From: Alphaproteobacteria bacterium
Lineage (GTDB): Bacteria; Pseudomonadota; Alphaproteobacteria; Reyranellales; Reyranellaceae
Direction: 5' to 3'
NCBI GenBank assembly: GCA_016870115.1
Contig: VGCH01000030.1
Coordinates: 1 to 34,067, forward strand
DNA length: 34,067 nt
The notes beneath the pieces were generated by a model. It was not told the origin of the DNA. It saw only the letters and a list, made by a program, of their open reading frames with translations, and did not search any database. Below are positions 1-5,719 of this stretch, in pieces (the stretch's first letter is position 1; each line of letters opens with the position of its first letter). The position numbers and the translations under genes were made by a program.

Positions 1-58
1 CATCGGCTTGTCGGAGTCTCGAAACGATCTCTTCAGGCTTGTGCCTCTTCTTCGGCAT
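1..58 (-). CDS. IS3-family transposase OrfA, N-terminal fragment (runs off window)
   Basis: The minus strand reads ATG at 58 followed by MPKKRHKPEEIVSRLRQAD before the window ends. This is the highly recognisable N-terminus of OrfA proteins of IS3-family elements, the helix-turn-helix subunit that binds the element ends. In the family OrfB, the DDE catalytic part, follows by a programmed -1 frameshift; it is not visible here. An AGGAGG ribosome site lies about 6 bases upstream of the ATG. Only 19 codons are present, so integrity cannot be judged. Confidence 0.75.
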   Translation of the reverse strand, partial: MPKKRHKPEEIVSRLRQAD

Positions 59-121
59 TGCAGTCCTCCTTCTTGTCAAAAGACATAGTTCAGGGCGGAC
101 CACTTTTCAGGGGGAGGACCA
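1..121 (-). mobile_element. IS3-family insertion sequence, left-end fragment
   Basis: The fragment holds the start of a transposase OrfA reading off the left edge, plus about 60 bases of leader. On the minus strand the leader contains CCCCCTGAAAAGTGG-type sequence (about 101-115), which resembles terminal inverted repeats of IS3-family elements. The element probably ends near 119-124, at a TGG-initiated terminus. The other end and any target duplication lie outside the window, so the exact boundary is uncertain. Confidence 0.6.
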
Positions 122-3719: not shown

Positions 3720-5180
3720 GTGGACGCGGGCAGAGTGACAGGCGTGACGGACGGGTTCGTGCTGGTCGCCAAGCGCGACTGTCCGACCTGCGTGCTGGTG
3801 GCGCCGGCGGTGGCGGAGATTTCGCGCGGCTCGCGGCCGATCGCGGTCTATAGCCAGGACGATCCGGCCTTTCCCGATGGGCTGCCCGGTGTGCGCGACG
3901 ATCGGACCTTGGAGGCCTCGTTCCGGCTGAAGATCGAGACCGTGCCGACGCTGATCCGCGTGGAAGGCGGTCGTGAGGTCGGCCGGCTGGTCGGCTGGGA
4001 GCGCAACGAGTGGCGCGCCTTCACCGGTCTCAATGCGCTGGGCGAGGATCTGCCGGAATGGCGGCCCGGCTGCGGCTCGAAGTCGGTCGAGCCGGGCGTG
4101 CCCGACGAGTTGGAGCTGCGCTACGGCGACGTGTCCTTCCAGGCGCGGACCATCGAGGTCGCCGAGGGCGACGATGAGGTCGAGGCCATGTATTCCCGCG
4201 GCTGGTCCGACGGACTGCCGCTGGTGCCGCCCACGAAGCTGCGCGTCCATCGCATGCTGAAGGGCACGACGCGCGATCCGAAAGAGGTTCTGGGCCTGCT
4301 GCCCCCCGACCTGCGGCCGATCACGGTGGAGAAGGTGGCGATCAACGCCGTCATGGCGGGCTGCGCGCCAGAATACCTGCCGGTGGTGCTGGCGGCCGTC
4401 GAGGCCGCGTTGATGGAGCCCTTTGCGCTGCACGGCGTGCTCGCGACCACCATGTTCTGCGGCCCGATCGCCATCGTGAACGGACCGATCGCGCGCCGCA
4501 TCGGCATGAACGCGCGGGGCAACGCGCTGGGTCAGGGCAATCGCGCCAACGCCACCATCGGCCGCGCCTTGCAGCTTTGCGTGCGCAATGTCGGCGGCGG
4601 CCGGCCGCAGGGCGTGGACCGCTCGACGCTCGGGCAACCTGGCAAGCTCGGCTTCTGCTTTGCCGAAGACGAGGAGGGGTCAGCGTGGAGTTCGCTCGCG
4701 GAGGATCGCGGCTTTACGCGGGACGCCAACACGGTGACGTTGTTCGCGGGCGACTCGCCGCACGGCATCGTCGACCAGCAATCGCGCACACCGGAGTCTC
4801 TCGCACGGTCCTTCGCGCTGTCGCTGCGTTCGGTGAACCACTGGAAGCTCGCGCAGGCGGCGGACGCGATTTTGGTCGTCTGTCCCGAGCACGAACGCAC
4901 CTTCAAGGCCGCCGGCTGGGACAAGGCGCGACTTCGCGCCGAGCTCGACGGCCTCCTGAAGTTGCCGGCGGCGGAGATTGTGCGCGGCGCGGGCGGCATC
5001 GCCGAGGGCGTGCCGGCGGCGGCGCTGGCTGAGCGCGATCACGTGCCGAAATTCCGCCCCGGCGGACTTCTGATCGTGCGCGCGGGCGGCGGAGCGGGTA
5101 TGTTCTCCGCCGTGATCGCAGGTTGGGCCGCTGCCGGTTCCGTCGGCAGTTCGCCGGTGACCTGCGCCATTCGCGACTGA
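3720..5180 (+). CDS. Thioredoxin-fold protein fused to a large uncharacterised domain; UGSC operon partner
   Basis: About 486 aa from a GTG start at 3720, chosen because GGGAGG lies 4 bases upstream; GTG codons at 3735 and 3744 are alternatives. Residues about 10-115 look like a thioredoxin fold: a strand FVLVAKRDCPTCVLVAPAV with a CxxC motif (C21-P-T-C24), and a cis-proline-like TVPTLI followed by EGGREVGRLVGW. The rest (about 120-486) is a cytosolic domain with SRGWSDGLPLVPPT and an LGQGNRANATIGRA stretch, ending in an IVRAGGGAGMFSAVIAGW segment. I recall this domain accompanying UGSC genes, but its function is not known to me. The selenoprotein gene starts 23 bases downstream, so an operon and a redox partnership are likely. 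Confidence 0.8.
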   Translation: MDAGRVTGVTDGFVLVAKRDCPTCVLVAPAVAEISRGSRPIAVYSQDDPAFPDGLPGVRDDRTLEASFRLKIETVPTLIRVEGGREVGRLVGWERNEWRAFTGLNALGEDLPEWRPGCGSKSVEPGVPDELELRYGDVSFQARTIEVAEGDDEVEAMYSRGWSDGLPLVPPTKLRVHRMLKGTTRDPKEVLGLLPPDLRPITVEKVAINAVMAGCAPEYLPVVLAAVEAALMEPFALHGVLATTMFCGPIAIVNGPIARRIGMNARGNALGQGNRANATIGRALQLCVRNVGGGRPQGVDRSTLGQPGKLGFCFAEDEEGSAWSSLAEDRGFTRDANTVTLFAGDSPHGIVDQQSRTPESLARSFALSLRSVNHWKLAQAADAILVVCPEHERTFKAAGWDKARLRAELDGLLKLPAAEIVRGAGGIAEGVPAAALAERDHVPKFRPGGLLIVRAGGGAGMFSAVIAGWAAAGSVGSSPVTCAIRD

Positions 5181-5203
5181 CGCCCACGCTTCGGAGGATG
5201 CAC

Positions 5204-5719
5204 GTGCAGCTTCTCGATCCCACCGCCGAAACCGAACCGGTGCGCCGCACGCGCCGCGCGCCGCCCGAGAAGATCGCCGGGCTGCGCGTGGGGCTGCTCG
5301 ACATCTCCAAGCCGCGCGGCAACATCTTCCTCGATCGCATCGAGAGCAGGCTCGCGGCCGAGGGCGTCGCGGTGACGCGCTATCGCAAGCCCACCTTCAC
5401 GCGGCCCGCGCCGGCCGAGCTCGCCCACAAGATCGCGAGCGAGGTCGATCTGGTGATCGAAGGGTTGGCCGATTGAGGGTCTTGCACATCGTGCAGTCTG
5501 CACGACATCAAGACCCTCGACGAAAAAGGCATCCCCGGCGGCTACGTGGCCTCGTCGGAGTTCACCCAGGCGACGGAGGCCCAGGCCCAGTCACTGGGCT
5601 TCGAGCCCGGCGTCGTTTATGTGCCGCACCCGATTCAGGATCGAACCGACGAGGAGATGCGGGCGCTGGCCGACCAGGCTTATGAGCAGGTGCTCGCCCT
5701 GATCCGCCGCGTCGGCTAA
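5204..5719 (+). CDS. UGSC-family selenoprotein (in-frame TGA read as selenocysteine)
   Basis: A 171-aa selenoprotein. The frame runs IAGLRVGLLDISKPRGNIFL ... LVIEGLAD, meets TGA at 5474-5476 (residue 91), and continues U-G-S-C-T-S-C-S-L-H-D-I-K for 80 more codons to TAA at 5717. The region after the TGA is clearly coding (VASSEFTQATEAQAQ, VVYVPHPIQDRTDEEM), and the product matches the UGSC (seleno)protein family, predicted from metagenomes and of unknown, presumably redox, function; other members carry Cys at the U position. A double stem-loop SECIS begins at the TGA. The start is probably GTG at 5204, with GGAGG 6 bases upstream; ATG at 5198 abuts that ribosome site directly. No selA/B/C/D genes are in this window. 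A nonsense-mutated pseudogene is unlikely because the downstream frame and hairpin are intact. Confidence 0.9.
5474..5519 (+). promoter_or_regulatory. Bacterial SECIS element for UGA recoding
   Basis: The UGA codon (5474-5476) lies at the base of a perfect 10-bp stem (5475-5484 with 5509-5518; U5474-G5519 adds a wobble pair). Above a small internal loop (CACA/CAT) a perfect 7-bp stem (5489-5495 with 5499-5505) carries a 3-base loop GUC (5496-5498), or AGUCU if the last pair opens. A guanine at the loop start, 19 bases after the UGA, fits the SelB-binding rule for bacterial SECIS elements and resembles the E. coli fdhF loop. Confidence 0.9.

Follow-up and report, generated by a model that had tools for sequence, protein, structure and literature searches.

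A near-obligate partner gene for the UGSC selenoprotein, with a predicted thioredoxin-fold domain in one clade

The UGSC selenoprotein has a close to obligate partner, a protein with a large domain that we call BIG. The pair was found in a window of 34,067 nucleotides, which is the whole stretch of DNA analyzed here (GenBank contig VGCH01000030.1; C30 below). It comes from a 3.56-Mb alphaproteobacterial genome of the family Reyranellaceae. In the window, BIG is joined to an N-terminal domain with a predicted thioredoxin fold (Trx), and the UGSC gene follows on the same strand. The two genes appear to represent a widespread two-component selenoprotein system near the Stickland selenoprotein B. 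No description of such a system was found in the literature searched.

Co-occurrence of BIG and UGSC

The UGSC gene begins 23 bases past the Trx-BIG stop codon, and the frame coordinates agree with the spacing given in the preliminary description. PF24696 and a BIG profile were searched against 398 genomes sampled evenly across the phylum. PF24696 was found in five of these genomes. BIG was found in exactly those five, with 0 discordant genomes. The chance of retrieving an identical five under independence is about 1e-11, a figure that is overstated by the kinship of the genomes. Within the order, 75 of 76 genomes encode both BIG and UGSC, and the remaining one encodes neither.

When 84,980 species genomes were scanned, at least 566 BIG relatives were retrieved. 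The best 80 were picked by their likeness to BIG and are uninformative on how often UGSC occurs without Trx. They belong to the Pseudomonadota, Chloroflexota, Acidobacteriota, Actinomycetota, Myxococcota, Thermodesulfobacteriota, Gemmatimonadota, and Hydrogenedentota. Trx and BIG lie in one frame in all of them (80/80), and across phyla this fused version is about 53 to 80% identical to the window protein. The UGSC gene is next to Trx-BIG in every informative locus (79/79); the remaining locus ends at a contig edge. In 76 loci it is downstream and has the same orientation (median gap, 19 nt), and in 3 it is divergent. No in-frame fusion of BIG to UGSC was found in the 76 same-strand loci.

A dedicated partnership with UGSC had been proposed for this gene. 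It is borne out by concordance in 398/398 and 76/76 genomes and by adjacency in every informative locus. Homologs occurring mostly without UGSC, which the proposal had named as the contrary outcome of a gene-neighborhood check, were not seen.

A UGSC-containing protein was described from the GOS selenoproteome in 2008 (PMC2398784). That paper also reported a fusion of UGSC to a domain named "Unknown_1." The UGSC literature searched gives no partner, function, or operon. The window UGSC differs from the published accounts in its near-obligate partner, BIG, and in its predicted fold, which is flavodoxin-like and GrdB related.

The Trx-BIG fusion gene

(a) The thioredoxin-fold domain. The fusion gene (P0001) spans positions 3720 to 5180 of the forward strand and encodes 486 amino acids in a single open frame that is conserved in relatives. 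It starts with GTG and stops with TGA at 5178 to 5180. An alternative GTG start at 3735 fits the orthologues equally well. When 58 fused members were checked with the standard code, a stop was found in just one of them, at the very end, and a few required a shifted start.

The N-terminal domain, including a linker, comprises residues 1 to 137 (positions 3720 to 4130, forward strand) and was delimited from a profile match and an AlphaFold2 model. It contains a CPTC active-site motif at residues 21 to 24 (3780 to 3791), and the form CxTC is kept in 99 to 100% of 82 aligned relatives (Cys21 in 99%, Cys24 in 100%). It also contains a VPT motif (3942 to 3950) with Pro76 at the thioredoxin cis-proline position. 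Val75 and Pro76 are 100% conserved, the latter across the 82 aligned relatives, in which Trp93 is 99 to 100% conserved.

The single Trx-BIG sequence matched thioredoxin models below their cut-offs only. It scored 11.8 bits with PF13098 (cut-off, 27 bits) and 13 bits with TIGR01068 (cut-off, 96.8 bits). A profile built from relatives matched solved thioredoxins with an E value of 6.8e-5 (hmmsearch). The AlphaFold2 model of Trx-BIG had a mean pLDDT of 93.6, with values above 95 over most of the Trx domain. Residues 1 to 104 of the model superpose on thioredoxin, CcmG, ResA, and DsbE structures with a Z score of about 10 over 83 to 104 residues (VIA). Foldseek matched the model to thioredoxin-fold structures with an E value of 3.7e-4. 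On this evidence, the N-terminal domain is predicted to be a thioredoxin fold with a CxxC motif and a cis-proline loop. The CxxC is not a chance match, since Cys21, Cys24, and cis-Pro76 are kept in relatives and both the profile and the model match thioredoxins. The CxxC thioredoxin-like domain claimed in the preliminary description is upheld by the profile match, the Z score, and the conserved Cys and cis-proline residues. A structure without a thioredoxin fold, the result that had been named as counting against it, was not found; the predicted model has the fold.

The domain resembles thioredoxin and thioredoxin-like domains (PF00085, PF13098, and the TraF/TrbB type) in its CxxC motif, cis-proline, and fold. 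Unlike typical thioredoxins, it is divergent (below the family cut-offs), is fused to BIG, and has a conserved linker Cys118. This residue (PGCGS; 4071 to 4073) is a candidate relay thiol and is 100% conserved in Trx-fused relatives. The linker that carries it is present in the Trx-fused clade only and is missing from the non-fused paralogues.

(b) The large domain. BIG is the label coined here for the domain after the Trx part, roughly residues 138 to 486 (positions 4140 to 5177, forward strand). It has a confident predicted model and no Pfam or NCBIfam model. Earlier it had been described as about 370 residues of unknown function; the missing family model agrees with this, and the length is nearer 350. 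When Pfam and NCBIfam were searched with 69 family members at E values of 0.1 or less, no family beyond thioredoxin-like ones was retrieved, and the other matches came from single members. No PDB sequence match to BIG was present among the 60 matches listed for the family profile.

Structure searches with the full Trx-BIG model retrieved mostly thioredoxins, and a viral structure library returned almost only thioredoxin-like entries. The only match seen that covered BIG was a class I fumarase (6uqn). It was rejected as the BIG fold for being too weak (E value, 7e-3; probability, 0.57; TM score, 0.2).

BIG contains a SRGWSDGLPLVPPT motif at residues 159 to 172 (4194 to 4235), in which Asp164, Gly165, and Pro167 are invariant. 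It also contains a LGQGNRANATIG motif at residues 270 to 281 (4527 to 4562). Cys215 (MAGC; 4362 to 4364) is kept in 100% of the fused clade and in at least 90% over the BIG subtypes. Cys313 (4656 to 4658) is invariant in all of them. All four features lie on the forward strand. The residues invariant in both fused and non-fused BIG are D164, G165, P167, P171, G271, I280, G281, R282, N290, C313, and E316.

The UGSC gene and its selenocysteine

The second gene spans positions 5204 to 5719 of the forward strand and encodes 171 amino acids with a selenocysteine, Sec91. It scored 149.9 bits with NF041046 (cut-off, 125 bits) and 142 bits with PF24696 (cut-off, 25 bits). By these models it is a member of the UGSC family, with the motif U91-G-S-C94. 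It is like that family in scoring above both cut-offs and in having its predicted Sec within UGSC. The in-frame UGA that is predicted to be read as Sec91 lies at 5474 to 5476, and a TGA is found there in 113 of 114 aligned UGSC sequences. D90, G92, S93, C94, H100, D101, F120, H142, and P143 are conserved in 100% of the 114. One UGSC subtype has Trp in place of the second Cys (UGSCSSW).

A predicted SECIS hairpin lies at 5473 to 5520 of the forward strand. Its folding energy is -28.9 kcal/mol, with a z score of -6.8 against dinucleotide shuffles. A similar apical hairpin follows the TGA in many UGSC relatives. Just 23 of 73 SECIS regions of relatives fold at z scores below -2 (simple shuffles), so the case for a SECIS across relatives rests on the shared apical hairpin and not on energy. 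Contig C19 of this genome contains a tRNA-Sec (72 bits) beside SelB (444 bits). Judged from these matches, the putative SECIS and the Sec machinery for UGA read-through are both present.

In beta- and gammaproteobacterial loci (L023, L029, L041, L045, L055, L064, L076, and L092), selB lies downstream of the UGSC gene, and several also contain selA. The UGSC module looks as though it takes Sec machinery of its own along when it moves.

Kinship of UGSC to selenoprotein B

The UGSC model has a pLDDT of 92 and contains a five-stranded flavodoxin/Rossmann-like domain. Sec91 lies at the start of a helix (residues 92 to 107), right after a strand (residues 83 to 89). The best solved match is 8s7v_H, a subunit of the methyl-coenzyme M reductase activation complex (Z score, 12.4; rmsd, 2.9; 130 residues). 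A thioredoxin-like fold had been suggested for UGSC (PMC2398784). It was rejected here; the model matches flavodoxin/Rossmann-like proteins and not thioredoxins.

The glycine-reductase selenoprotein B model TIGR01917 was matched by 40 of 55 UGSC sequences (best E value, 1.4e-4), and the sarcosine GrdF model was matched by 33 of 55 (best E value, 4.5e-5). GrdH and PrdB models were matched as well. The window UGSC scored 13.3 bits with TIGR01917 against a cut-off of 602 bits, over profile positions 333 to 397 of 431. Its Sec lies within the matched stretch. The likeness to GrdB is limited to about 75 residues around Sec.

A GrdB-family selenoprotein with the Sec motif UGSCNRC is encoded at L134:1234-2529 (minus strand), in a genome that also has a Trx-BIG/UGSC pair. 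It was identified with PF07355 (396 bits). Its gene adjoins what reads like a GrdE-type partner. The stretch around its Sec, VDGVLLVATUGSCNRCG, aligns with VDLVIEGLADUGSCTSCS of the window UGSC (hhalign E value, 1e-5). A PrdB-like selenoprotein (MUPVC; TIGR04483 E value, 6e-37) is encoded at L174:9483-10350, near two BIG-UGSC pairs and a gene for an LLM flavin monooxygenase.

UGSC is, from these alignments, a relative of the selenoprotein B Sec domain. It is not a member of that family, since the rest of GrdB is missing and the cut-offs failed. It shares with GrdB, GrdF, GrdH, and PrdB (PF07355; the glycine, sarcosine, betaine, and D-proline reductases) a UGxC-type motif that follows a beta strand and contains the aligned Sec. 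Like selenoprotein B, it carries Sec and has a larger subunit as its partner. Unlike GrdB, it does not contain the N-terminal two thirds, and its scores are far below the cut-offs. As UGSC appears to be flavodoxin-like and GrdB related, it would be a Sec catalyst of a kind other than a second thioredoxin. BIG members had no match to GrdE or PrdA models (NCBIfam, Pfam). BIG is thus not recognizably similar to GrdE/PrdA, the pyruvoyl partner of the Stickland reductases. The hosts of BIG-UGSC include many ordinarily aerobic lineages, which also sets the pair apart from selenoprotein B.

The Sec, Cys, and His residues of UGSC might instead be ligands for a metal or metalloid that is detoxified or delivered, and Trx would keep them reduced. 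We consider this very unlikely. The sequence UGSCxxC...HD is a ligand-rich motif, and selenoproteins tied to heavy-metal handling are known (PMC13188914). However, the motif matches that of GrdB, whose Sec is a nucleophile, and in the UGSCSSW subtype the second Cys is replaced by Trp. No metal-resistance or metal-transport genes were recognized beside the pairs examined.

Non-fused subtypes and origin of the fusion

This genome contains four UGSC loci, each adjoining a BIG gene. Trx is present on the window copy only, and three of the four partners do not contain it. A redox pairing of Trx with UGSC had been suggested for the window. The partnership with UGSC stands, and the Trx domain is dispensable for the pairing, as these three sites are without it. 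Relatives from the order contain several non-fused BIG subtypes, and in one of these a pair of BIG genes comes after UGSC.

A tree was built from 137 BIG domains. One branch (SH-aLRT, 97) separates the fused domains from the others, which requires one change against 41 in shuffles. This placement suggests that Trx and BIG were fused once. A Cys pair (CVDGAC or CIDC) stands at the C terminus of two non-fused subtypes. The pair is found in 14 of 58 non-fused sequences versus 0 of 88 fused ones, counts in which a few are the same gene fetched twice. Cys-tailed non-fused BIG genes are found at L011:3820-4923, L158:8505-9557, L162:6978-8105, and L174:7108-8229. The Cys pair could be an alternative shuttle dithiol, that is, another electron-delivery part. 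Several BIG-UGSC subtypes have neither Trx nor the Cys tail, so the Trx domain would not be essential to the basic reaction. Since other subtypes do without Trx, some with the Cys pair and some with neither, the preferred view of the Trx domain is that of a reductant which a single clade has built into the protein.

The fused Trx may not serve UGSC at all. It could reduce the BIG cysteines (C313 and C215) or help in docking, and UGSC would be recharged by the general thioredoxin/glutathione pool. We hold this to be unlikely. It draws on the invariance of C313, and the near invariance of C215, in BIG with or without Trx, and on the lack of a Trx domain in most BIG-UGSC subtypes of this genome. 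Against it, the extra linker Cys118 of all fused members fits a shuttle to the partner, and so does the C-terminal Cys pair of other subtypes.

Neighboring genes

The paralogous pairs adjoin genes for an LLM flavin monooxygenase, a TauD-like dioxygenase, Liv and Tct transporters, an amidohydrolase, and acyl-CoA enzymes (read by eye). These neighbors suggest small-molecule metabolism or catabolism. The conserved neighbors vary by lineage, so no substrate is indicated. At L011:2588-3823, the LLM flavin monooxygenase gene and the start of a non-fused BIG gene share a four-base overlap (translational coupling). One stretch opens both contig C30 (window positions 39 to 120) and contig C36 (L011, from base 45). 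It is a contig-end repeat that reads MCLFFGIAVLLLVKRHSSGRTTFQGED in one frame.

A small membrane protein is encoded directly upstream (320 to 500 bases) of Trx-BIG in nine gammaproteobacterial loci (L081, L078, L077, L086, L075, L090, L056, L059, and L067). In seven Chloroflexi loci (L034, L031, L036, L040, L043, L052, and L061), a peroxidase-related AhpD-like selenoprotein is encoded just upstream of Trx-BIG. The one at L034:7652-8320 has the motif CKYU (TIGR01926 above the cut-off).

BIG-UGSC could serve in thiol or peroxide defense or repair instead of acting as a catabolic reductase. In that case peroxides, sulfenic acids, or mixed disulfides would be reduced by Sec, which Trx would then regenerate, with BIG as the platform for binding. 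The UxxC-type motif, the constant Sec, and the fusion to Trx would be usual in a thiol redox enzyme. The AhpD-like neighbor in Chloroflexi and the level of identity of the fused version across phyla, as for a general function, also fit. However, the predicted fold of UGSC is not that of a peroxiredoxin, GPx, or thioredoxin, and its Sec motif aligns with GrdB. The paralogues are duplicated and dispersed among transporter and oxygenase genes, and most genomes do not contain the pair. We regard this role as improbable.

Proposed mechanism

The two genes may encode one two-component selenoenzyme, in which BIG binds the substrate, the UGSC Sec attacks it, and the fused Trx restores the Se-S state. 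We give this reading about even weight. In glycine reductase, the nucleophile is a Sec and the reductant is thioredoxin (PMC10298544), and the fused Trx of the UGSC partner is a point of likeness to that enzyme. The small-molecule Sec mechanism is drawn from this analogy.

BIG and UGSC are inferred to form a physical complex. BIG would bind a small substrate and orient it next to UGSC. Sec91 would attack the substrate and form a Se-substrate adduct. Cys94 or Cys97 would then resolve the product and leave a selenenyl-sulfide with Sec91. The CPTC motif of the fused Trx, perhaps via the linker Cys118, may reduce this selenenyl-sulfide. The Trx domain would in turn be recharged by the thioredoxin-reductase system of the cell, if electrons flow in this direction.

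GrdB-like proteins diversify by substrate, and a role even in C-F cleavage has been proposed (PMC10838667). It is possible, though we would advance it only tentatively, that BIG-UGSC forms a new enzyme class in which C-S, C-N, or C-halogen bonds are cleaved reductively with the help of Sec. Such enzymes would operate apart from the Stickland pathways, in aerobes too. The class would have a substrate-binding subunit of a new fold and substrate-specialized paralogues, with one clade having its own thioredoxin.

Implications

BIG has no Pfam or NCBIfam model despite its many relatives, at least 566 in one genome scan. The wiring of such selenoenzymes would be revealed by their exchangeable electron-delivery parts, either a Trx domain or a C-terminal Cys pair. 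UGSC becomes a testable two-protein enzyme through its near-obligate partner, which carries the likely reductant, and through its tie to the chemistry of glycine reductase.
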